From Planctomycetia bacterium (lineage in GTDB: Bacteria; Planctomycetota; Planctomycetia; Pirellulales; Thermoguttaceae): a stretch of DNA of 36,368 nucleotides. Location: NCBI GenBank assembly GCA_026401055.1, contig JAPLNP010000454.1, positions 1 through 36,368 of the forward strand. The letters are read 5' to 3'. How positions within the stretch are numbered: position 1 is the first letter of the stretch; the number at the start of each line of letters is the position of its first letter. Below, piece by piece: positions 2,831 through 36,368 of this stretch. Position numbers and translations under genes: made by a program. A model generated the notes under the pieces. It saw nothing but the letters and a program-made list of their open reading frames with translations. It was not told the DNA's origin and searched no databases.

Positions 2831-3161
2831 GGTGAGTTCTCCGTGATTACTGGTTGAATTAGAGAGGAGCGAACGACTTCAACACAAATAGTGGGCAACG
2901 TCCGGATGTTTCACGCAAAGGCGCGGAGGCGCAAAGAGCTTTCGGACCGATGGGAACACCGTCGGCACAAGTCAATCATCGTGCTTCGAGCCTTCGAGTT
3001 GGGAAAACAGGTTTCTTTGCGTCTTGGCGCCTTTGCGTGAGCCCTTCTCGCGATAGCGACGCCAAAGTGTCCGGACTGACAAGATCAAGGAGATGACCTT
3101 GCGACGCCCCACTCATTGGCATTCCATCGTGCTTGTATTGACAATCCGGTCGAACACGCTT
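2831..3161. other. Gap between SDR and xylA
   Basis: The 331-nt gap has no convincing ORF. It contains an inverted pair of about 27 nt (2911-2937 and 3014-3040) that could form a long stem with a 76-nt loop. No clear promoter for xylA was found. Confidence 0.6.
2911..3040. repeat. Inverted repeat pair of the CGCAAAGGCGC type
   Basis: TCACGCAAAGGCGC at 2911-2924 is perfectly inverted as GCGCCTTTGCGTGA at 3027-3040. The match extends over 27 nt with 24 matches (2911-2937 against 3014-3040). Short repeats built on 'ACGCAAAGGCGCAAAG' are widespread in environmental bacterial genomes. The pair lies between the stop of the SDR gene and the start of xylA on the same strand, so it could end or attenuate SDR transcription. 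Confidence 0.7.
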
Positions 3162-8585: not shown

Positions 8586-9119
8586 CTACTCGGCCAAGTC
8601 GATGTCGTGCGTCTTGGAACCTCCGCCCGCCTCGATCGTGACGGTCAGGCCGGAGGTCGCCGGGTCGGCGTAGCGCGGGGGCAGCACCATGTTGTTGGCG
8701 GCCGCCTTGGCGGCCTGGGCCGGCGACACGTCGAAAAGCGGTGCCTTCACGAGCACGACCGAGACGCGGTACTCGCCCGGCATGATCCCGCGGTCGTTCT
8801 CCAGCGTCGCGGCGACGAACGAGCCGTCGGGCTGGATGCTCGCCGTGGCCGGTCGGCATTTCGCCGCATCGACCGGGTGAAACGTGACCGTTCCGCCGAC
8901 GAGCGGCTGGCCCTTGTAGGTGACCCGGCCCGACAGGGGAACCGTTCCCAGACGGGAGCCGCCGCATCCTTGGCCGACGATGACCGCGCCCAAGAGCACA
9001 ACCAAGGCCGCCGGCGTGAGCCGCGCCTTTGCGACGTGTGGCACAGCCACCCTCGGCTGTGCAGAATCGTCCGACACAGCCGAGGGCGGCTGTGCCACGT
9101 AAGATATCGCTTCACCCAT
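8586..9119 (-). CDS. Lipoprotein with regulatory-like beta-sandwich domain
   Basis: This 177-aa protein has a lipoprotein signal: hydrophobic ALVVLLGAVIV and then GQGC, with the Cys as probable lipidation site. The mature part 'SGRVTYKGQPLVGGTVTFHP' followed by 'DGSFVAATL' and 'GEYRVSVVL' is the carboxypeptidase-regulatory or transthyretin-like domain common in planctomycete lipoproteins, ending with 'PPRYADPATSGLTVTI'. Its role is unknown; relatives usually sit next to DUF1559 proteins, as here (21 nt after that stop). The ATG at 9119 has an AAGGTGA just upstream. The first about 34 residues are unusual because they include VAQPPSAV and 'RVAVPHV', encoded by a 61-nt interspersed palindrome. 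A GTG start just after most of it would give a normal signal peptide. Confidence 0.82.
   Translation of the reverse strand: MGEAISYVAQPPSAVSDDSAQPRVAVPHVAKARLTPAALVVLLGAVIVGQGCGGSRLGTVPLSGRVTYKGQPLVGGTVTFHPVDAAKCRPATASIQPDGSFVAATLENDRGIMPGEYRVSVVLVKAPLFDVSPAQAAKAAANNMVLPPRYADPATSGLTVTIEAGGGSKTHDIDLAE
9038..9098. repeat. VAQPPSAV-type palindromic repeat
   Basis: Two 24-nt arms (9038-9061 and 9075-9098) are inverted copies with 23 of 24 matches and a 13-nt loop. The core is GTGGCACAGCC, one variable base, then CCCTCGGCTGTG. Read on the minus strand it encodes VAQPPSAV and 'RVAVPH', peptide text I recall from many planctomycete annotations. Here it lies in frame inside the 5' part of the lipoprotein gene. 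Confidence 0.85.
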
Positions 9120-9140
9120 CAAATCACCTTGGACGGAGCA

Positions 9141-10205
9141 CTACTCTTGTGTGACGACCTCGCCCTGGTTTCTCGTTCCCAGGTAGGCGAAGAGCATCAA
9201 GGAAATCGTTTCGTCGACGAAATGGACGGAGCCGTCGGCGTAGAGGAAATTGGCGCCGCCCGCATGATGGCTGCTGAAACCCTGGTGATAGTAGCCGTAC
9301 GTGGCGACGTCCCTGGGGGCGTTGATCCCGTAGACGCAGGTTCCCAGCGAGTAGGGCTCCATCCAGGCGACGAAAACGCCGACGGCCACGCTGCCGCCCG
9401 CCTTGGGGTCGATCTTCTGCTCGCCGACGAACAACGTGTTGGACGTTCCGTCGGCGACGTCGCGGACCTTGACGGCGGTGGCGCGGTGGCAGAACATGCC
9501 GATGCAGCTTGCCTCGTCGCTGCCGATCCAGGAGCCCAGGCCGTTGTTGTTGGCTATGTAACAGGGACAGACGGCCGGACTGACGCACACTCCGCAGGCG
9601 TAGGGCGACGTCTTGCCCACCGAGGCCGGCCCGCCGCTCCCAAAATAGTTGGCCGTCGACGCCTCATAGGTCGCCGCGGCATAGTCGGCGCCGGTCAAGG
9701 CCCAATGCGGAGGCTGCAAGGTTTGAATCTTGCCGGCCAACGGATCGCTGGGGCATTGGAAGGAGTCGATGACGGACCGCTGGGCCGGCAGCGCGGCCAG
9801 AACCTTGCACCACGCCGCAGCCGGCCGGGCGCTGGGCGGCTCGAAAAACTGGGGGTCCATCGCCGCGCCGATCTGATCGTAGAGGCCCTCCTGCTCCAAA
9901 AACGGCAGGATGAAGCTCCGCCAGTTGAACAACCCGGCGCCCGTGCTCCCCGGAAGCCCGTTGGGCGAGTCGTAGCTTCCGCCGTAGGGGAAACTGCCGT
10001 GGGACGAATCGTAGTTGTACAGCGCGACGCCGATCTGCTTGAGGTGGTTGGTGCACTGCATTCGCCGGGCGGCCTCCCGCGCCGCCTGCACGGCCGGCAG
10101 CAACAGCGCGATCAGAATCCCGATGATCGCGATCACCACCAACAGTTCGACCAGCGTAAAGCCGAACTGGCGGCCGGGCCGGTCGGATCGAGCGATCTTC
10201 CGCAT
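9141..10205 (-). CDS. DUF1559 domain protein, pilin-like
   Basis: This 354-aa protein has the type IV pilin-like N-terminus [19 protein letters not shown] with Glu at +5 after the probable prepilin cleavage site (Gly-Phe), then the diagnostic DUF1559 text '[17 protein letters not shown]' and '[20 protein letters not shown]'. Other family marks are ADYAA in the middle and '[15 protein letters not shown]' near the C-terminus. The family is greatly expanded in Planctomycetota and its members are thought to be exported and processed as pseudopilins, but their function is not established. The ATG at 10205 follows an AAGGAGA site; the first in-frame codon at 10220 is less likely. It lies 28 nt after the chimeric surface protein gene and 21 nt before the lipoprotein gene, so these probably form one transcript. 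Confidence 0.95.
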
Positions 10206-10233
10206 TGTGTCTCCTTCCATGTCAGCGGTGTGA

Positions 10234-12156
10234 CTACCGCCGTCGCCACGTCGCGCCCAGCAGGGCGATGACGCCCATCACCAGGAGCGTTGCGGTCGAG
10301 GGTTCGGGCACGGAGCCGCCTTTGGCCATCTCGCCCCAGTGCGCGGCGAGGATTGCGGCGTCCTTGTCGTCGACGTTGAAGTCGCCGTTGAAGTCGCCGT
10401 CGGCCCAGGTGGCGTCGCCCTGCATCAGCCAGTGTGCCCCCAGGATCGAGGCGTCCTTGTCATTGACGATCTTGTCGCCATTGGCGTCGCCCAGCAGTGT
10501 CGGTTCGGGGGCGGCGATCCAGGTGAAGTTGTCGAAACGCAAGGACACGTCGCCCTCGGGGAACGACGGCACGTAGAGCCCGAACGCGGTGATGTCGCCC
10601 GCGGGCAGCGCGCCGACGGAGCCACCGATGCTCAAGTCCAAGCCCGGAATGAAGTTCAAGAGCGACCATGTGGCCGAGTCCATGTCTATTCCGGCGACGT
10701 CGAACCAGCGCAACGCATTGCGGGGCGTTTGGGCGATGAACGTTCCCAACTCATTGGTCACGTACCAGTCGTTGCCGACTTGGACCGCAAGGCCGGGGAT
10801 GACGTCAGTGTCGTCGCCCGTCTCGGTTTTGGCGCCCGTGTTGTACTGCTGCCACTCGGCGGCGATGAGGTCGACGTCGGCGTCAATCGTATACTCGTTG
10901 GTCCACAACAACTGCGGTTCGTTCGGGGCAGTGATCGCGCCGTAGTGGTACGTGTAGCCGTAGATCGTCTGGCCGGTGGTCGATGGATTCGAGTTGACGC
11001 CTTCCCGGTCAACTCCGCCTTCGCTGTACGAAATGTTGACCGGATCGGCGCCGCTGGCGCCGCCGACCTGGGCTGCGAAGTTGCCGCCATGCGCCTGCCA
11101 GCCTTCCACAGTCAGACCCTTGCTATTTCCGTCCCCCAGCAGGTTGGGGAAGGTTTCACGGTAGATGACCCGTTCGTTCGGGTTGCCGTGCAGGATGGCG
11201 ATGTCGCGGATCGTGCCGAAGCCGCCGCCGGACGCCTCGGTTGTGAACGAGGGCGCGGGGCCGGAGAAGTCGATGCGGACCCGCCGCAGGTCGCCCCCCT
11301 GGTTGCCGACGATGATCTCGTTGTCGCTTTGCACGGCGATGGCCGAGATGGCGCCGTAGCCGCTATTCGAGCCCAGGTTGACCATGTCCGAGCCGCGCAG
11401 GGCGTAGATCGTTCCCGCGGTTGTGCCGGCGATGACCGTGTCGTTGCCGAGGCACGCCAGAGCGGAGATCAGGCCGTCGGCGGCGTCGAACTGGTGGAGG
11501 CTGCCGATGGCGCTGTCGTACTGGAACACCTGACCACTGGCGTTGCCGGTGACGATGTTGTCGTTGCTCTGGATCGCGATGGTCGTGGAAAGCCCAAGAT
11601 TGCCCCGGTTGGTCACGACGTCGAAGGCCGCCGCTGCGGCGTTGTAGCGATAGATGTGAATGTCGCCGCCGACCGGCGCGTAGTTCCAGAGCACGACGGC
11701 ATCGTTGTTGCTTTGCAGGCCGATCGGACCGAGCGAATTGGCGAAACCGGAGGCCTGCGCCAGGTAGCCCAGGTTAGGGTCTCTCAGACGCAGATCCTCG
11801 ATCGACGCCACGAAGATGTTGCCGGTGGAAGCCACCGCCGCGTCGACGACCGAGCCGTAGCCGGCGTCCTGCAACCCTTCGAAGATGTTGTCCGCGCTGC
11901 GGTACCAGACGTAGCCGTGCGTGCCGGAGATCACCAGGTTGTCGTCGGGGGACGCGGCGACCGTCGTCATCTCCACGCCGGGCCAGGCGAAACCACTGTG
12001 GCTGAGCACCGGCAGCAGCGAGTTGCGTTCGCGGACGTACACCCAGCCCTCGCTGTTGACCACCGCGACGTCATCGATCAGGGCGGCCTCGGCAGGCACG
12101 GCCGCGACGATCGCCAGCACCACCAACCCGCCGAGAAACGCGATTCGAGCAAACAT
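10234..12156 (-). CDS. Chimeric beta-propeller/dockerin/PEP-CTERM surface protein
   Basis: This 640-aa exported protein has a signal peptide (about 1-25), a repeat-rich beta-propeller-like region (about 26-330, with recurring '[12 protein letters not shown]' and '[13 protein letters not shown]' units), a second module (about 335-545, starting '[14 protein letters not shown]'), a type I dockerin pair ([21 protein letters not shown] and [21 protein letters not shown]; about 555-612), and a PEP-CTERM anchor ([19 protein letters not shown] then WRRR). The propeller part aligns with the next protein upstream (12249-13304), while everything after about 335 aligns with the protein at 13301-15532. 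Dockerins bind cohesins or calcium. PEP-CTERM proteins are processed by exosortase and sent to the cell surface. The start is fixed by TAGGAGGTGA just before the ATG at 12156. Confidence 0.9.
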
Positions 12157-12182
12157 CGTCTCACCTCCTATTGGCGCGCGGC

Positions 12183-12218
12183 TGCGGCGGGCGGATGGCT
12201 CGTGCTCCGTCCGCCGCA
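12183..12218. repeat. Intercistronic GC-rich hairpin
   Basis: TGCGGCGGGCGGA (12183-12195) pairs with TCCGTCCGCCGCA (12206-12218) at 12 of 13 positions around a 10-nt loop, with more GC pairing possible on both outer sides. It lies between two related surface-protein genes on the minus strand, just upstream of the ribosome-binding site of the second. It could be a weak terminator or an RNA-processing site that sets different expression of the two genes. Confidence 0.5.
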
Positions 12219-12248
12219 ACCGGCGCGTGAAAATCATAGTCCAATCAT

Positions 12249-13304
12249 CTAACCGCGGCGTTTCCGCCACCGCGACAACGCCAGCACGGCCATCCCGACG
12301 GCCAGCAGCGCGACCGACGACGGTTCGGGGACCTTCAGCACGGCGACGTCGGTGATGGTGCCGAAACCGTCGCCGTAGCCGGTGACCTGGAAGATCTCCT
12401 CGGGGCTTCCGCCCGAGAAGTCGATCGTCACGCGCCGCAGCACGCCTTCGGCGTTGGCGACGATCACGTCGTCGTCGCTCTGCACGGCGATGGCCGAGAC
12501 GGTGCCGTATCCGCCCGCGGAGGCGAGGATGCTCGAGCCGTCGGCCGCCAGGGCGTAGAGCGTGCCGGACGTGTTGCCCGCGATGACCGTGTCGTCGCTC
12601 AGGCACGCCAGGGCGCTGATTGACCCCAGACCGTTGATCTGGCCGAGGTAGCCGATCGCGCTGTCGCGGAAGAACAGGTTGCCCGACGTGTTGCCGACCG
12701 CGATGCGGTCCGCGCTCTGGATGGTGATGGCCGACAGCCCAACGAATCCGTTGGCGTTCGTGACCACGTCCATGGTTCCGTCCCCCCTGTCGCGGTAGAT
12801 TCGCACGTCACCGCCATTGAGTTCCCAGTTGACCACCATGTCGTTGTTGTCCTGCAGGGCGACCGAGTCGATACCCTGCGTTCCCACCTGAAATCCGGTG
12901 GCCCGAGAGATGTCACCGAGTGTCGCGCTGCGAAGAAAGAGGATGTCCTTCGACGCCACGACGATGTTGCCGTTGGAATCGAAGGCGGAGTCGACGACGG
13001 AGCCGTAGCCGGCGTCGTGCGCGACGTCGCTGTGGAGGTCAGCCGCGTTGCGGACCCACACTTGTCCCAGATCGCCCGCGATCACCAGATTGTTGTCCGG
13101 GCCGGCCGAGACGGTCCGCAGCGCGCCGAAACCGTCATTATACGTCTTCGGGTCGGGCAAATCGCTCAGCGTGTCGTGATGGCGGACCCAGACGTTGCCT
13201 TCGGCATTGACGACCGCGACGTCGTCGATCGTCACCGCCGGGGCCGACGCGGCCAGGCAGCACCACGCGATGCCCACGGCGAGCATCCACATTCGTACAT
13301 TCAT
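12249..13304 (-). CDS. Beta-propeller PEP-CTERM protein
   Basis: This 351-aa protein has a signal peptide (MWMLAVGIAWCCLAASAPA), then seven or so propeller-like repeats with units such as 'ALQDNNDMVVNW', 'TIQSADRIAVGN' and 'AVQSDDDVIVAN', and ends with the sorting signal VPEPSSVALLAVGMAVLALSR followed by WRKRRG. PEP-CTERM signals are recognised by exosortase; none is encoded in the window. It has no dockerin. Over its whole mature length it resembles the N-terminal half of the protein encoded just downstream (10234-12156), for example '[16 protein letters not shown]' against '[16 protein letters not shown]'. A GGGAGG site precedes the ATG at 13304. The ATG overlaps the stop of the upstream gene as ATGA, so translation is probably coupled. 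Confidence 0.88.
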   Translation of the reverse strand: MNVRMWMLAVGIAWCCLAASAPAVTIDDVAVVNAEGNVWVRHHDTLSDLPDPKTYNDGFGALRTVSAGPDNNLVIAGDLGQVWVRNAADLHSDVAHDAGYGSVVDSAFDSNGNIVVASKDILFLRSATLGDISRATGFQVGTQGIDSVALQDNNDMVVNWELNGGDVRIYRDRGDGTMDVVTNANGFVGLSAITIQSADRIAVGNTSGNLFFRDSAIGYLGQINGLGSISALACLSDDTVIAGNTSGTLYALAADGSSILASAGGYGTVSAIAVQSDDDVIVANAEGVLRRVTIDFSGGSPEEIFQVTGYGDGFGTITDVAVLKVPEPSSVALLAVGMAVLALSRWRKRRG

Positions 13305-15532
13305 CGCTGTACCTCCCATCGGTTGAAGAAAAGATGCAACATCTTTGAAGACAACGGATGCCCCATTGGCGAAAAGAGAAGCATGAGCACGGCGGGCGCC
13401 AATAGCGCGAGCGTGCCGGGCTCGGGAACCGAGGATTCCGCGGCGCCGGCGCCCCAGTGCGCGGCGAGGATCGCGGCGTCGCGATCGTCAACGGCGCCGT
13501 CGCGAGTGAAGTCGCCCTCTTCCCAGGTCGCTCCGGAGGACTTCCGCCAGTGCGCGCCCAGGATCGAGGCATCCAGATCGTTCACGGCGCCGTCGTGGTT
13601 GGCGTCGCCCGGGATCGCGGCGGCCTTCCTGGCCAGAAGCGTAATGTTGTCGAAACGGAGGAAGGCGTCGGCGGGGTTCTGTTCGATGAACAGCCCGAAC
13701 GCCGTAATGTCGCCTTCCGGCAGTGCCGCGACCGGCGCGCCGACGGTCAGCGCCTGGCCGTGGCGGAAATCCAGCGCGGACCACGTCGCCGTGGTCAAAT
13801 CGAGCGAAACGACGTCGAACAGCGGATCGGTCGATTCAATCGTGCCGGTCTGGTCCGTGACGAACCAGTTCGTGCCCACTTGGACGGCGAACGACGGGGT
13901 CAGCGACGCATTGTTGAGCAGTTGCTCCCAGCGAACTTCGGTCAAATCCCACGCTTCGTCGACCACGTACTCGCTGGTCCAGACGATCTGCGGCTGGCCC
14001 GCGGGCACCATCGACGTTGTGTGGAACGTGTAGCCGGAGACCGTGTCGGTCGTCGCGGCATTGGAGTTGATCGCCGGCTGGGGCGGCGCGCCGTCGCTGC
14101 CGGCCACGTTGACCGCGTCCGTGCCGTTGAGCTTGCCCACCAACGCGGCGTTGGCGCCGCCGTGGGCGATCCAGCCGCACGTGTTCAGACCCACGGGCGA
14201 CCCGGTCGTGTTCGGGAAGATCTCGCGGTAGATCGGCCGAATCGTCTCGTCGGCGATGAGCGTGAGCGTGTACTTTCGCACGGGCGCTTCGTAGAGGCTG
14301 TTCGGGTTGACGCCCAGCGGCGACACGTACATTTCGAGCTGGCGCGTCTCCTTGTTCTCCAAGAACGAGAAATTCGAGAACTGGATCGTCGACGCTTCAC
14401 CCGGCTGGCGGGTGTCGATCATCGTCACCGTGTCCTTCTTGATCGACGGCACGCCCGTCTCGTCGATTTCGGCGATCACCAGCGGGTAGCGCGGCGAGTT
14501 GCCCGAGGGAGCGTCCATCGTGATGTTGCCGAGGAAGTACAGCTTGCCCGTTTCGCTGCTGCGGAACATGTGGGAGATGCTCGAGGGCGAGTAGAACTGG
14601 GTGCCGTCGTTGTACTTCAGCTCGGTCGGCTCGCCGATGGTCTGTCCGCCGTCGGTCGAGAGGCCGTAGTAGCGCCGGCCCATGTCCGTCCGCCAGGTGA
14701 TCATCAGCCGGTGGTCGGTCAACTCGGCGACCTCGGGTTCCATCAGCCCGCGAGGAGACGACGCGGTGGAAATGTGCGTCGGCGCGCCGGCCTGCCAATC
14801 GTAATCCTGGTTCGTCGGGTTCCAGGAGCCGATCATGCAGAGCGAACCGATGGGCATGGGCGTTGTCTGGCCGCCCTGCTCGTACGGGATCATCACGCCG
14901 CCCGCGGCCATGACGACCGTCCCATTGCTGTGACGGATGATGTTGTTGCCCAGGTCGGCCTGGTTGTAGCGCAAGGCGTTCTCGTTCAACGGATGCGCGA
15001 TGTCGTACGGATCGCCGAGGTCTTCGTAGCGGAGTTGCTCGGGCTCGGCGTAGGTCTGGCCGCCGTCGAGCGACAGCCGGTAGAACATGTGGACCTGCTG
15101 GCCGTAGCCCGCATAGTTGTGGACGACGTACTGACTGGTTCGGATCGTGGCATTCGTGACCGGATCGACGAACGCCCGCTCCAATCGGCGGAACTGCACG
15201 CGCGTGCCGTCGATGTAAAAGGTGATGGGATCCTGCGGTATCATCTCGGTCCACGTCAACCCGTTGTCCGAGGAATAGCGGCGCCGCGGATTCATGTGGA
15301 AGTCGTCGCCGGTGGCCGCCGACTCCTCGACGTAGTTCTCCTCCCGGAGGTTCGGCCCGATGTACGACGCCCAACACCAAAGGACCGTGCCGGGCGCCGG
15401 AACGGGTTGGTAGAGTTCTTTCTGGACCGTCACGATGGGCATGTTGACGTCCCAGGGGGCAACCGCCCAACTCGGCGCCGCCAACGACAGCACGAAAAGA
15501 CTTGTTGCCAGCAGCAGACAGAGGCGTCTCAT
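13301..15532 (-). CDS. Sialidase-like, dockerin and PEP-CTERM surface protein
   Basis: This 743-aa exported protein has a signal peptide (LCLLLATSLFVLSLAAPSWA). The N-terminal 420 residues carry BNR/Asp-box-like motifs ('SSDNGLTWTE', 'SLDGGQTYAEP', 'STDGGQTIGEP'), typical of exo-alpha-sialidase six-bladed propellers, which remove sialic acids or act as sugar-binding scaffolds. A module starting 'PIYREIFPNTTG' (about 435-620) follows, then two dockerin EF-hand-like repeats ([42 protein letters not shown]) and a PEP-CTERM motif SVPEPGTLALLAPAVLMLLF. Unlike its two neighbours, the anchor is not followed directly by a basic cluster: about 22 more residues (PMGHPLSSKM to EVQR) run into the next gene, overlapping its ATG. 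The ATG at 15532 is preferred over an in-frame GTG at 15535. Confidence 0.88.
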   Translation of the reverse strand: MRRLCLLLATSLFVLSLAAPSWAVAPWDVNMPIVTVQKELYQPVPAPGTVLWCWASYIGPNLREENYVEESAATGDDFHMNPRRRYSSDNGLTWTEMIPQDPITFYIDGTRVQFRRLERAFVDPVTNATIRTSQYVVHNYAGYGQQVHMFYRLSLDGGQTYAEPEQLRYEDLGDPYDIAHPLNENALRYNQADLGNNIIRHSNGTVVMAAGGVMIPYEQGGQTTPMPIGSLCMIGSWNPTNQDYDWQAGAPTHISTASSPRGLMEPEVAELTDHRLMITWRTDMGRRYYGLSTDGGQTIGEPTELKYNDGTQFYSPSSISHMFRSSETGKLYFLGNITMDAPSGNSPRYPLVIAEIDETGVPSIKKDTVTMIDTRQPGEASTIQFSNFSFLENKETRQLEMYVSPLGVNPNSLYEAPVRKYTLTLIADETIRPIYREIFPNTTGSPVGLNTCGWIAHGGANAALVGKLNGTDAVNVAGSDGAPPQPAINSNAATTDTVSGYTFHTTSMVPAGQPQIVWTSEYVVDEAWDLTEVRWEQLLNNASLTPSFAVQVGTNWFVTDQTGTIESTDPLFDVVSLDLTTATWSALDFRHGQALTVGAPVAALPEGDITAFGLFIEQNPADAFLRFDNITLLARKAAAIPGDANHDGAVNDLDASILGAHWRKSSGATWEEGDFTRDGAVDDRDAAILAAHWGAGAAESSVPEPGTLALLAPAVLMLLFSPMGHPLSSKMLHLFFNRWEVQR

Positions 15533-30004: not shown

Positions 30005-30092
30005 TGGCACGTCCCTGAGCCTGGGGCGAAGGGCGTGGCTGATCCGTCGCGGGTGCCCGCCACGCCCTTCGCCCGAGGCTCAGGGCGTGCCA
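30005..30092. repeat. Large palindrome between gspE and gspF
   Basis: A 35-nt arm (30005-30039) and its inverse (30059-30092) match except for one inserted base and one mismatch, with a 19-nt loop. The arms begin TGGCACG and end GAAGGGCGTGGC. It lies in the 159-nt space between gspE and gspF in the middle of the operon. It could be a third family of interspersed planctomycete palindrome, and may reduce or stabilise the downstream mRNA. Confidence 0.85.
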
Positions 30093-32142: not shown

Positions 32143-32874
32143 ATGACCACGAGCCGCCAACCACCGCCGAGCGTCCGGCGAGCGGGGGACTGGTCCATTT
32201 TTCGGCGGAAAGACGTGTTTTGCGAGAAGACGTCGGCCGAGAACATGGACCTGTCCCCTTCCTCGCCGCGCGGCTACACGTTGGTCGAGATGCTGATCAT
32301 TCTCGCGGTCCTCGTGCTCATGGCCGGCGTCGCCTGGCCCGTGCTGCGCGCGCCCTGGCGAAGAACCCAGGTCGAGGACGCGGCCAATCATGCCCGGGTC
32401 ACGCTGGCCCGGGTCCGCGTCAAGGCCATCGAGTCCGGCACGGCCTGGCAGTTTTGTTTTCTGCCCGGCACGGGCCTATTCGCGTACCGACCGGTTGTTC
32501 CGGGGCGCGACGCGCGACGGATGGCCGAGGCCGGGCCGTCGCAGGACTCGCTCGACGAAGAGACCGTCGAGGGCGAGCTTCCGCACGGCGTGTTCTTCCG
32601 CGACCCCCGGGAGCGCGAGACGTTCAACTCGCTTGACACGTCCGACGCGGCCCCGCTGCCGGCGGAAGAGATCTCGCGGCTGGACGCGGCGGACTGGTCC
32701 GAGCCGATCCTGTTCTACCCCAACGGCCGCGCCGCCAACGCCCGACTCGAACTCCAGGGCCCCAAGGGCCTGTCCGTCGACGTGACCTTGCGGGGTCTGA
32801 CGGGCATGGCGAAGGTCGGGAAGCTCCAACGCCCGCGGCCGCAGGAGGAGCCGCAACAGGAACCGCGCGAATGA
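32143..32874 (+). CDS. gspH: Minor pseudopilin GspH with repeat-encoded leader
   Basis: This is a minor pseudopilin of the GspH type. From the first ATG (32143) it is 243 aa; the cleavage site is after Gly44 in SPRG-YTLVEMLIILAVLVLMAG, Glu at +5. The leader then contains WSIFRRKDVF and SAENMDLSPSSP, encoded by an 85-nt interspersed palindrome (32185-32269). If the ATG at 32245 is used, the leader is only ten residues (MDLSPSSPRG), normal for prepilins, and the repeat itself supplies the start codon. Neither start has a clear ribosome-binding site. The mature part (about 200 aa) has a hydrophobic N-terminal helix, a charged middle and an Arg/Pro/Gln-rich tail. It ends with ATGA, overlapping gspI. 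Confidence 0.85.
   Translation: MTTSRQPPPSVRRAGDWSIFRRKDVFCEKTSAENMDLSPSSPRGYTLVEMLIILAVLVLMAGVAWPVLRAPWRRTQVEDAANHARVTLARVRVKAIESGTAWQFCFLPGTGLFAYRPVVPGRDARRMAEAGPSQDSLDEETVEGELPHGVFFRDPRERETFNSLDTSDAAPLPAEEISRLDAADWSEPILFYPNGRAANARLELQGPKGLSVDVTLRGLTGMAKVGKLQRPRPQEEPQQEPRE
32185..32269. repeat. Palindromic repeat P, copy 1 (in gspH leader)
   Basis: The ends GGGGACTGGTCCAT and ATGGACCTGTCCCC are near-inverse (13 of 14), so the element is itself a long imperfect palindrome. An inverted copy of about 88-90 percent identity is at 34771-34856, in gspK. Here the right end supplies the ATG at 32245. Confidence 0.8.
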
Positions 32875-33329
32875 AACCGAACCGAGCCGCTTTCTCGTTG
32901 CTCGAGGTGCTGCTGGCCACGAGCCTGCTTCTGGCCTGCGCGGTCGTGCTGGCCGAGTTGGCCAACATCGGCCGCGCCCATGCCAAATCGGCCGACGAGC
33001 TGGCTTCGGCCCAGTTGGCGTGCCAGACGAAGCTCAACGAGATTCTCTGCGGGGCGACGCCGGCGGCAACGGTCGAAAAACAGCCGCTGGAGGACATGCC
33101 CGGCTGGCTGCTGTCGGTCGAAATCACTTCGCTGGAGCAGCCCGGCCTGGCCGCGCTGCGCGTGACGGTGGCGGAGGACGTCGAGGACCTCGATGACAAG
33201 GACCAGCAGCGGGGAAAAGCGTTCTCGCTGGTCCGCTGGATTCGCGATCCCTACGGCCAGGCCTCCGGCTCCGGGTTCCTCACGGAACCATGGTCGCGCA
33301 CGCCGCTGGACGGAGGATCCCCGCCATGA
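32871..33329 (+). CDS. gspI: Minor pseudopilin GspI
   Basis: This 152-aa pseudopilin has a very short leader (MKPNRAA) and the mature N-terminus FSLLEVLLATSLLLACAVVLAE, with Glu at +5; Ala rather than Gly precedes the cut. The family (GspI/PilV-like) helps form the pseudopilus tip with GspJ and GspK. A conserved Cys (about 53-60) lies in the middle. Its ATG overlaps the gspH stop (ATGA, 32871-32874) and its own stop overlaps the gspJ ATG in the same way, so H, I and J are translationally coupled. No repeat DNA is seen in its 5' end, unlike gspH and gspJ. Confidence 0.9.
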   Translation: MKPNRAAFSLLEVLLATSLLLACAVVLAELANIGRAHAKSADELASAQLACQTKLNEILCGATPAATVEKQPLEDMPGWLLSVEITSLEQPGLAALRVTVAEDVEDLDDKDQQRGKAFSLVRWIRDPYGQASGSGFLTEPWSRTPLDGGSPP

Positions 33330-34624
33330 CGCGTTCTTCGCGGCACAAACCGAGCCGCGACCGTGAGGGAGCGGTGGTGAAAACTCGCCAATCCCGCCAC
33401 GTGACACCGCTTCCTGACGGGCGCGGCTCGGTTCCTGCTCGTGCCTTTACCCTGCTGGAAGTCCTCATCGCCTTCCTCCTGGCCACGACGCTGCTCTTGG
33501 GCCTGTGGGGCATCATGGGCATCTACAGCCGACTGTTCGAGTCGGGCAAGGCCAAGACCGAGCAGTCGCAGCTCGCCCGGGCATTGCTGGAGCAACTCGC
33601 CGACGATCTGCGAAGCACGATCCAGGACGCGCCCGCCGAGGGGCAACTCGCCGGCGCCGCCGCCCCCGCGGGAAGCGACGCCCAGACCGCCGGGGCGTCG
33701 TCGGGCTTCGAGACGCCGACCGCCGTGCGGCGGTTCGGGCTGTTCGGCTCCGCCCACGCCATGACGTTCGACGTCCTGCAAGTGACCCCCGAGCAGGCGG
33801 TTCCCCCGGCCGAGGACGCGACGAGCCCGAACGCGGACGTGCCGGCGCTGGGCCGGGCGCCCGAGTTGCGGACCGTCCAGTACACGTTTGTCGAGCCGGA
33901 AGTCTCCACGGAGAAGGACGTTTCCGCCGCGGTGGAGGTGCAAAGTGACCGCGACAAAGACCGCGTCGAGGCACGCCCCGGCCTGACGCGGCGGGAACTG
34001 GACTTCGAGCCGCCCAAGGAGCGTCGTGCCGACTCCAAGTTCGACCGCACGATCGCGAAGGCGACCGCGGAGGCAGCGGGCCGCCGCGACGGCGATCTCG
34101 ACGACCCCGGATCGGAGGACCGGCCCGACGATCCGTCGATCACGTGGGTGCCGGAAGTCGTCGGTCTGTCGCTGCGCTACTTCGACGGCCGCGGTTGGTC
34201 GAGCACGTGGGACAGCCTCCAGCGCAAGTCGCTGCCGGTGGCCGTCGAGGCGCGGATCGAAATCGAGTCGTTCGATCCCCGGGACCGGCGACGGCGTCTG
34301 GCCGAGCAGGAAACGCTCGACGACGAGGTGACCGTGGTCGGCGCCGAGGGCCCCGATCCGCTGGAAACCGACCGGCCGAAAGCCGCCGGCGCCGCCGCGG
34401 TCCGGGACGACGGGCGACGCGTTTATCGCCTGGTAATCGATCTGCCCACGGCCACGTCCTATCGGGGCGTCCAAGCCGCGTCGAGCCGCTCCGCGCTGCC
34501 GGCCGCGCGCTCGATCGTCCCCCGGCCGCTGCCGACGCCGAGCTTGCGCGTGCCCCGGACGAAGAGCGAGGCCAAACCGGCAACGCGGCCCTCGGATCAG
34601 TGGATGAGGACCAACTCGCCATGA
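33326..34624 (+). CDS. gspJ: Minor pseudopilin GspJ with 40-residue repeat-derived leader
   Basis: This 432-aa pseudopilin has its cleavage motif RA-FTLLEVLIAFLLATTLLLG at residues 40/41, with Glu45 at +5. The leader before it is 40 residues (normal is 6-20) and contains KPSRDREGAV and PLPDGRGSV, the translation of a 97-nt interspersed repeat (33337-33433). GGAGG lies 8 nt before the ATG at 33326, which overlaps the gspI stop, so the long leader is probably truly translated. The mature protein is longer than usual GspJ (about 200 aa) because of an acidic, Pro/Ala-rich insertion in the middle and an extended C-terminus. It still ends with typical GspJ strands ('LSLRYFDGRGWSSTWDS'). It is placed at the pseudopilus tip in known systems. 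Its stop overlaps the putative gspK start. Confidence 0.88.
   Translation: MTRSSRHKPSRDREGAVVKTRQSRHVTPLPDGRGSVPARAFTLLEVLIAFLLATTLLLGLWGIMGIYSRLFESGKAKTEQSQLARALLEQLADDLRSTIQDAPAEGQLAGAAAPAGSDAQTAGASSGFETPTAVRRFGLFGSAHAMTFDVLQVTPEQAVPPAEDATSPNADVPALGRAPELRTVQYTFVEPEVSTEKDVSAAVEVQSDRDKDRVEARPGLTRRELDFEPPKERRADSKFDRTIAKATAEAAGRRDGDLDDPGSEDRPDDPSITWVPEVVGLSLRYFDGRGWSSTWDSLQRKSLPVAVEARIEIESFDPRDRRRRLAEQETLDDEVTVVGAEGPDPLETDRPKAAGAAAVRDDGRRVYRLVIDLPTATSYRGVQAASSRSALPAARSIVPRPLPTPSLRVPRTKSEAKPATRPSDQWMRTNSP
33337..33433 (+). repeat. Repeat D (SRDREGAV type), copy A in gspJ
   Basis: A 97-nt element, 86 of 97 identical to 34653-34749 in gspK, in the same orientation and the same reading frame. Its ends are inverted: AACCGAGCCGCG near the left and CGCGGCTCGGTT at the right, with about 25 of 28 nt pairing. 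It encodes KPSRDREGAV and PLPDGRGSV. Confidence 0.85.
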
Positions 34625-36368
34625 GAACCATTTGCGGGGGACTGTCCCGATTTTCGCGGCGCAAACCGAGCCGCGACCGTGAGGGAGCGGTGCTGGAGAC
34701 TCGCCAATCCCGCGGTGTCATACCGCTTCCTAACGGGCGCGGCTCTGTTTCGCGCGGGACTGTCCCCCTTGCGGCGAGGAAGGGGACAGGTCCATGTTTT
34801 CGGCCGGCGCTGTTCTCGCGAAACTCGTCTTCCCGCCAAAAAATGGACCAGTCCCCAGCGCGTTCTCGCCCCCCGCGCCGCGGGATCGTCTTGATCCTCG
34901 TGATGGTCGTCGTGGTCATGATCAGCCTGGCCGGCATGAGTTTCGTCGTGCTGATGTCGACCGAGAACAAGGCGGTTCACCTCCGGGGCGACGAGTTGGA
35001 AGCGCAGTGTCTCTTGGGCTCCGGCGAGGAATCCATCAAGGCCCTGCTGGAATTGGACGACGAGAAGCGCGGGGCGGCGGGCGGAACCTGGGACAATGCC
35101 GATCGGTTCCACGGGGTGGTGGTTCTCGGCAAGGAGTCGAAGCGCCGGGGCCGCTTCAGCGTGCTTTCGCCTCGAAGCGAGGACGGCAAGATCACCGGCG
35201 TCCGTTGGGGGCTCGACAGCGAGTCCGCCCGGCTGAATCTGGCCGTGCTGCCCGACTGGGAGCGTCGCGTCCCCGGCTCGGCCCGGGCGGCCCTGTTGAA
35301 CCTGCCCGGCATGACCGAAGCGATCGCCGACGCGATTCTCGACTGGCTCGACGCCGACGGGGCCCAGCGGCAGTTCGGCGCCGAGGCCGATTACTACGCC
35401 GGGCTGCAACTGCCGTACGCGCCGCGCAACGCGACGCCGGGCTGCCTCGAAGAGCTGCTGTTGGTCAAGGGCGTCACCCGGGCGCTGTTGTTTGGCGCCG
35501 ACGCGAACTTCAATTACCAGACGGAGCCGGGCGAGTCGCGGGGGGCCAAGGATGCCGGCGTCGCCGACGGCCCGCCCTGGGCGTCGCTCGTGACGCTCTA
35601 CAGCGCCGAGCGGAACCTCGCGCCCGACGGCAAGCCCCGGATCAACCTGAACCAGCAAGACCTCCGGAAGCTCCACCAGCAACTCACCGGCGCGCTGGGC
35701 GAGGAGCAGGCTCAATTCATGATTCTCTACCGCCAATTCGGCCCCAGCACCGCCCAGCCCGGCGCCGCCCAGCCCAATGTCAACCAGGGACCGGCCGCGC
35801 CGAAGCCGTCGGTTCGACTCGATCTCAGCCTGCCCGGCAAGGTCAAGTTCGAGACCGTCTTGGACGCGATCGACGCCCGGGTCGAGGTGCCGGGGCGTGG
35901 AACCGAAAAGCCGGTTGTCGTCGCCAGCCCCTTTGCAGACGATTCGACCGCCATGGGCGACTACCTGCCCAAGCTACTTGAGCAAACCACGGTCGTGCCC
36001 GGCCCGGTGATTCGCGGCCGGGTGAACGTCGATCTGGCGCCCCGCGAGGTTCTGTTGGGCGTTCCCGGGATGGACGAGGCCACCGTCGGGCGGATCGTCG
36101 CCAGCCGCGGTTCGCGGGGCTCTCCCGGCACGGATTCGACCCCCCGCCACGCCACATGGCTCTTGACCGACGGACTGGTCGACCTGGACCAGATGAAGAA
36201 GTTGCTGCCGTGCCTGACCGTCGGCGGCGACGTTTACCGCGGGCAGGTGAGCGGTTTCTACGACCGTTCGGGCCCCATCGCCCGGGCCGAATTGGTGGTC
36301 GACGCTACCGGCCGCCCTTCGCGGCGAGTATACTGGAAGGACCTGCGTTTGTTTGGGCCGGGCTACTC
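34621..36368 (+). CDS. gspK: Minor pseudopilin GspK, partial, with 88-residue repeat-derived leader
   Basis: The frame is open from the ATG at 34621 (overlapping the gspJ stop as ATGA) to the window end; 582 residues are visible and the 3' end is missing. The mature start is RRG-IVLILVMVVVVMISLAG at residue 89. GspK typically lacks Glu at +5, as here. T2SSK features follow: 'ARLNLAVLPDW', the helix-hairpin-helix 'LLNLPGMTEAIADAILDWLDADG', and later 'LAPREVLLGVPGMDEATVGRIV', a second HhH. Residues 12-43 derive from repeat D and 51-79 from repeat P. An in-frame ATG at 34843, supplied by repeat P, would give a normal 14-residue leader MDQSPARSRPPRRG. A GAGGA about 10 nt before 34621 is a modest ribosome-binding site. 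GspK caps the pseudopilus tip with GspI and GspJ. Confidence 0.85.
   Translation, partial: MRTICGGLSRFSRRKPSRDREGAVLETRQSRGVIPLPNGRGSVSRGTVPLAARKGTGPCFRPALFSRNSSSRQKMDQSPARSRPPRRGIVLILVMVVVVMISLAGMSFVVLMSTENKAVHLRGDELEAQCLLGSGEESIKALLELDDEKRGAAGGTWDNADRFHGVVVLGKESKRRGRFSVLSPRSEDGKITGVRWGLDSESARLNLAVLPDWERRVPGSARAALLNLPGMTEAIADAILDWLDADGAQRQFGAEADYYAGLQLPYAPRNATPGCLEELLLVKGVTRALLFGADANFNYQTEPGESRGAKDAGVADGPPWASLVTLYSAERNLAPDGKPRINLNQQDLRKLHQQLTGALGEEQAQFMILYRQFGPSTAQPGAAQPNVNQGPAAPKPSVRLDLSLPGKVKFETVLDAIDARVEVPGRGTEKPVVVASPFADDSTAMGDYLPKLLEQTTVVPGPVIRGRVNVDLAPREVLLGVPGMDEATVGRIVASRGSRGSPGTDSTPRHATWLLTDGLVDLDQMKKLLPCLTVGGDVYRGQVSGFYDRSGPIARAELVVDATGRPSRRVYWKDLRLFGPGY
34653..34749 (+). repeat. 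Repeat D, copy B in gspK leader
   Basis: Second copy of the 97-nt repeat, 86 of 97 matching copy A, same orientation and same reading frame, encoding KPSRDREGAV and PLPNGRGSV. It lies in frame in the gspK leader, immediately before repeat P copy 2 (22 nt apart). Confidence 0.85.
34771..34856. repeat. Palindromic repeat P, copy 2 (in gspK leader)
   Basis: Inverse copy of 32185-32269 at about 88-90 percent identity with one gap. In this orientation the other end of the palindrome reads ATGGACCAGTCCCC and provides the in-frame ATG at 34843. Confidence 0.8.

Follow-up and report, generated by a model that had tools for sequence, protein, structure and literature searches.

Intercistronic REPs are known as RNA elements, and Rickettsia palindromic elements (RPE) are palindromic repeats that are translated in frame within functional proteins. 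The repeat described here resembles RPE in being a palindrome placed in frame within a protein-coding gene, but differs in that most of its copies are intergenic. It lies in a 36,368-nt stretch of DNA from a Planctomycetia bacterium, which as a whole is called the window below; this is one contig of a 6.68-Mb assembly of 673 contigs (genome G000). The repeat family to which it belongs is designated family A.

The closest described systems are the REPINs, or REP doublets (Bertels and Rainey 2011, PMC3116915), with which the family shares a pair of inverted REPs that folds into a long hairpin, a copy number in the dozens with dispersed positions, a mostly extragenic location and the occurrence of several families in one genome. 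It is unlike them in that no cognate RAYT was found for family A, and in that the copy at 9038–9098 is probably translated. REPs inside open reading frames, more common at the N-terminus, were described by Di Nocera et al. 2013 (PMC3733652), with DNA-repair genes among the targets; Planctomycetes are also reported in that paper. The intragenic GTAG/CGTC REPs treated there are similar to the present copies in lying within reading frames, in their N-terminal bias and in their DNA-repair targets, to which a copy in a MutL linker of genome G004 corresponds; however, the head of family A is GTGG, and signal peptides and prepilin leaders are not a subject of the section of the paper concerned. A literature search of partial coverage retrieved no paper on REPs in either kind of leader. 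REPs in genes, with an N-terminal excess, were published in 2013, and the hairpin in the probable leader adds an instance to an already described type of insertion.

Structure of the palindrome and its repeat family

The initial annotation had described a near-perfect 61-nt palindrome inside the gene of a lipoprotein, and both its position and its complementarity were confirmed: two 24-nt arms, complementary at 23/24 positions (96%), enclose a 13-nt loop (Table 1). The predicted RNA fold has a minimum free energy of −58.9 kcal/mol, compared to −23.9 ± 3.2 for shuffled sequences, none of which was as good in 200 trials (z = −11). When the 6.68-Mb genome was searched with the arm TGGCACAGCCNNCCTCGGCTGTG, 97 matches at ≤ 3 mismatches were obtained, whereas the reversed pattern, used as a control, gave 0; this excludes a chance origin of the palindrome.

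Each arm also forms a hairpin by itself: in a comparison of 67 distinct arms, 92.5% of the stem cells are paired and 27 compensatory double changes occur, whereas slid control versions of the stem were only 24–37% paired. The copies have TG...CA ends with a flank consensus of CAYG-TGGCAC, the arms often occur as inverted pairs, and several copies have the spacer in common. The commonest core length is 59 nt, present in 16 of the 23 fully flanked two-arm copies and here at 9039–9097, and the family comparison suggests a unit of 63 nt (TG/CG + 59 + CA), equal to 21 codons, at 9037–9099. The paired arms, shared spacer, common unit length and compensatory stems together correspond to REPIN anatomy, and by these sequence features family A is a REPIN-like dispersed element of two inverted REP hairpins, approximately 63 nt long. 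Among the relatives, a strong population is present in G004, fewer copies in G058 and G005 and a handful elsewhere, while most relatives have none.

Table 1. Features of the lipoprotein locus and its palindrome (positions in the window)
Feature	Position	Strand	Remarks
REPIN-like element, family A	9038..9098	.	61 nt; two-arm repeat, fold
5' arm on coding strand	9075..9098	-	REP GTGG + CACAGCC-GCCCTC-GGCTGTG; encodes VAQPPSAV; self-hairpin with compensatory changes
Central spacer TCGGACGATTCTG	9062..9074	-	13 nt; the C458 contig copy has the same spacer, several others a near-identical one
3' arm, inverted REP	9038..9061	-	holds in-frame GTG codons at 9050 and 9044
Lipoprotein-like CDS	8586..9119	-	177 aa; residues 1–51 predicted as REPIN-extended leader
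Upstream operon partner	9141..10220	-	DUF1559 (SBP_bac_10) protein, N-methylation motif; stop 21 nt before ATG 9119
Hydrophobic core and imperfect lipobox LTPAALVVLLGAVIVGQGC	8964..9020	-	homologue leaders end with the same Cys
Shine-Dalgarno-like AAGGTGAT	9123..9130	-	3 nt before ATG 9119; duplex with 16S tail −10.1 kcal/mol

The unusually stable fold, together with the general role of intercistronic REPs as RNA elements, would be consistent with a hairpin kept because it regulates the operon from its position between the DUF1559 and lipoprotein genes, as an attenuator or by stabilising the mRNA. A function of this kind is also suggested in Di Nocera et al. 2013 (PMC3733652). Family A is not limited to such operons, however, and an Rfam search with the hairpin gave no match; this explanation is very unlikely.

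The genome holds six Y1_Tnp loci, none of which is flanked by family-A REPs. Family-B REPs (see below) are found on the flanks of the locus on C471, and at the locus on C593 the flanking REP pairs share the GTGGCAC head while the loop differs. At the RAYT-like genes of these two contigs (L207:3110-3706 on C471 and L228:2865-3599 on C593), the flanking REPs appear to encode the predicted C-terminal ends. In G004, a remnant of a Y1 gene close to one family-A copy (L279) was considered as a cognate transposase and rejected; it has no convincing match among the own-genome RAYTs and resembles a decayed IS200-type fragment. Two further features of the window are an inverted repeat at 2911–3040 (TCACGCAAAGGCGC..., with 27-nt arms that are 89% complementary and lie 76 nt apart), and a row of tandem paralogous genes at 10234–15532 with dockerin-like repeats, a PEP-CTERM-like tail and shared stretches of 74–86% identity.

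The start codon of the lipoprotein gene

Lipoprotein signal peptides consist of a positive n-region, a hydrophobic core and a lipobox, [LVI][ASTVI][GAS]C. The open reading frame that contains the palindrome had no match in Pfam, and belongs to a large paralogous family in this genome and its relatives. Its translation reads MGEAISY-VAQPPSAV-SDDSA-QPRVAVPH-VAKARLTPAALVVLLGAVIVGQGC, so that the earlier placement of the repeat, which follows ATG 9119 in its reading frame, encodes VAQPPSAV and ends directly in front of the core, was correct, though the lipobox proved imperfect: it reads G-Q-G-C, without L/V/I at −3. The cysteine is common to the homologues, which show clearer boxes, e.g. VTGC.

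Whether the repeat is translated depends on the start codon, and the initial annotation had itself pointed to GTG codons near 9050 as a possible downstream start. Four in-frame GTGs are indeed present within the element, at 9098, 9077, 9050 and 9044. Had translation begun at GTG 9044 or 9050, supplied by the 3' arm, the REPIN would lie in an intercistronic 5' untranslated region, would have donated the start, and would leave a product, MPHVAKARLTPAALVVLLGAVIVGQGC, with a leader of ordinary length. This agrees with the choice of our home-made gene caller, which put the start inside the repeat at GTG 9044 and not at ATG 9119, and with the GAGG-6 nt-GTG arrangement offered by the arm. Many copies also lie ≤ 60 nt upstream of gene starts, and family C apparently supplies the ATG of some genes, e.g. 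L205. A preference of family C for donating an in-frame ATG would be a tentative idea; by eye, about 12 of 26 were in that frame, where one third would be expected. A caution in Di Nocera et al. 2013 (PMC3733652) points to the downstream start as well, as many N-terminal REPs may be extragenic if translation starts downstream of them.

Against this stands the stronger Shine-Dalgarno (SD) sequence of ATG 9119. Scored as a duplex with the 16S tail, for which the standard sequence was assumed, it reaches −10.1 kcal/mol, compared to −7.3 kcal/mol for GTG 9044, and outscores 96% of sites picked at random and 89% of the ATG starts assigned with confidence (n = 341). The GTG and its SD are, moreover, buried in the stem of the hairpin, while ATG 9119 lies outside it, 21 nt past the upstream stop, and the gene must have had a start before the insertion, for which 9119 is well placed. 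Leaders of the homologues measure approximately 18–40 residues to the Cys; the leader of the window gene is 51 residues long, and would be about 30 if the 21–22 repeat codons were absent. Arguing against a translated leader are the seven codons between ATG 9119 and the repeat, too short a segment for a measure of coding potential, the unusually long n-region that results (33 aa, with acidic residues), and the hairpin of −59 kcal/mol close to the start, which could hinder translation. A scan of the genome contigs revealed no close orthologue of the gene free of the repeat. As the SD of ATG 9119 is strong and the rival GTGs lie inside the hairpin, translation of the repeat within the n-region of the signal peptide is probable, and a start within the 3' arm is the less probable alternative.

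A fairly likely account of the locus is thus that of a selectively neutral, translated REPIN insertion in a lipoprotein leader. A non-autonomous mobile copy, perhaps mobilised by a RAYT-type transposase, would have inserted in frame approximately 7 codons after the start, into the signal-peptide n-region of a small lipoprotein gene in an operon with a DUF1559 gene. Translation would proceed from ATG 9119 through the repeat into the unchanged hydrophobic core, with MGEAISYVAQPPSAV within the product, and the extra residues would be removed with the leader, leaving the mature lipoprotein unaffected. The copy would then persist because it keeps the reading frame and lies in a segment that the protein can spare, and not through any known benefit.

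Distribution of the repeats between genes and proteins

The positions of the repeats were assessed in 157 stretches, mainly around copies of family A and of two families from the gsp genes of the window (B and C), amounting with the window to 0.99 Mb; genes were called with a home-made hexamer model. Although 83% of this sample is coding, 178 of the 213 mapped elements (84%) are wholly intergenic. The same pattern holds for family A in this genome (61/67 sampled elements) and in G004 (34/44). Single-arm matches within genes (at L079, L124, L190, L312 and L313) were excluded from the insertion count, as they may represent chance or ordinary coding sequence. A copy on C270, initially a candidate for a second family-A insertion in a paralogous lipoprotein leader, was rejected because a clear SD and ATG follow the repeat, which places it in 5' untranslated sequence.

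Coding insertions were checked with Pfam and by reading the sequence; L205 (HemG/Y-like), L128 (Lnt-like), L175 (ATPase) and L217 (hydrolase) were labelled from reading and not from Pfam. One family-A REPIN extends, without a change of frame, the linker of a Ser/Thr kinase-like protein directly behind the transmembrane segment (L134:1658-1716), and another lies in the MutL linker mentioned above (L311:2954-3023). Further copies occupy the C-terminal tails of MurG-like (L180), MatE (L191) and proton-antiporter-like (L154) proteins and the N-terminal tail of a NuoB-type protein in G004 (L308). Since linkers, C-terminal tails and cytosolic N-terminal tails also carry copies, insertions are tolerated in several kinds of segment, of which leaders are one.

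Repeats in predicted cleaved leaders

Four leader repeats within 36 kb had been proposed, comprising the lipoprotein and gspH, gspJ and gspK. The gsp repeats (window 32143–34890) lie upstream of the prepilin hydrophobic cores and belong to families B and C, both distinct from family A: CCGAGCCGCGACCGTNAGGGAGCGG, in gspJ and gspK, with 176 arms in the genome, and GGGGACNGGTCCATNTTT, in gspH and gspK, with 180. The gspK leader, of 87 codons, holds both. The starts of gspJ (33326) and gspK (34621) are ATGA overlaps with the preceding stop and lie upstream of the repeats; together with the strong SD of gspJ (scored one base off), this places their repeats inside the leaders. In gspH, an ATG at 32245 within the repeat would also give a leader of normal length, which makes this case ambiguous. 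A separate hairpin repeat, with 27-nt arms (96%), lies at 30013–30085 between the gspE-like and gspF-like genes.

A trypsin-like/PDZ protease is the strongest support for tolerated insertion into leaders. In this genome a family-B REPIN lies between its ATG and the signal-peptide core (L119:2975-3079), while in G004, which belongs to another genus, family A occupies the same n-region segment of the orthologue (L299:2965-3058). As the families differ, these insertions must be independent events. Among 30 orthologues including the G000 copy, 28 (one of them, L325, cut by a contig end) lack repeats of all three families at this position, and most of these have short leaders. In G000 the repeat comes after the ATG, and this ATG stands directly behind an upstream-gene tail that also leads up to the start codon in several relatives (...SEARQ-M; ...SEALQ-M), which places the repeat within the ancestral leader; in G004, a GTG start downstream of the repeat may be used.

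That cleaved leaders tolerate insertions is partly supported, by the SD-backed ATG 9119, the ATGA starts of gspJ and gspK and the protease with two families, whereas the claim that they are preferred sites, through target choice or strong differential survival, is unproven. It would be compatible with the favoured account of the lipoprotein locus, and several comparisons suggest it. N-terminal coding cases, curated by eye and not blind, were followed by a hydrophobic core in 11 of 15, against 37.4% of genes (P = 0.005), the same protease leader received two different families, and in GspK-like genes the leaders, 2.45 kb in all, contain 3 hairpins while the mature parts, 40.2 kb in all, contain 1, counting a 40-bp perfect palindrome in the leader of a gene from another taxonomic family (L376, G040:C91). 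However, the 11/15 include the ascertained window, where the three gsp genes form one operon; with this operon counted once the figure is 9/13 (P = 0.02), and outside the window it is 7/11 against 37% (P = 0.07), two of these seven (Lnt-like and HemG/Y-like) not being cleaved leaders. Genes with an element 0–100 nt upstream already have hydrophobic N-termini in 45% of cases, the GspK-like comparison without the window is reduced to one leader hairpin against one mature, and most copies are intergenic. A general preference of repeats for disposable leaders is thus suggested but not proven, and at present it is the unlikely reading. Tentatively, REPINs of unrelated families could, in these bacteria, repeatedly enter the segment between the start codon and the core of exported and prepilin-like proteins, with independent hits in orthologues from different genera, and leader length would then evolve by insertion of mobile elements.

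Clean test cases are at hand in the two orthologous proteases, whose leaders carry different REPINs in one and the same segment, and in gspJ and gspK with their ATGA-fixed starts. Should leaders in general act as a sink for in-frame repeats, mobile hairpins would supply new signal-peptide and prepilin-leader sequence, and the annotated starts of repeat-rich genomes would have to be revised.
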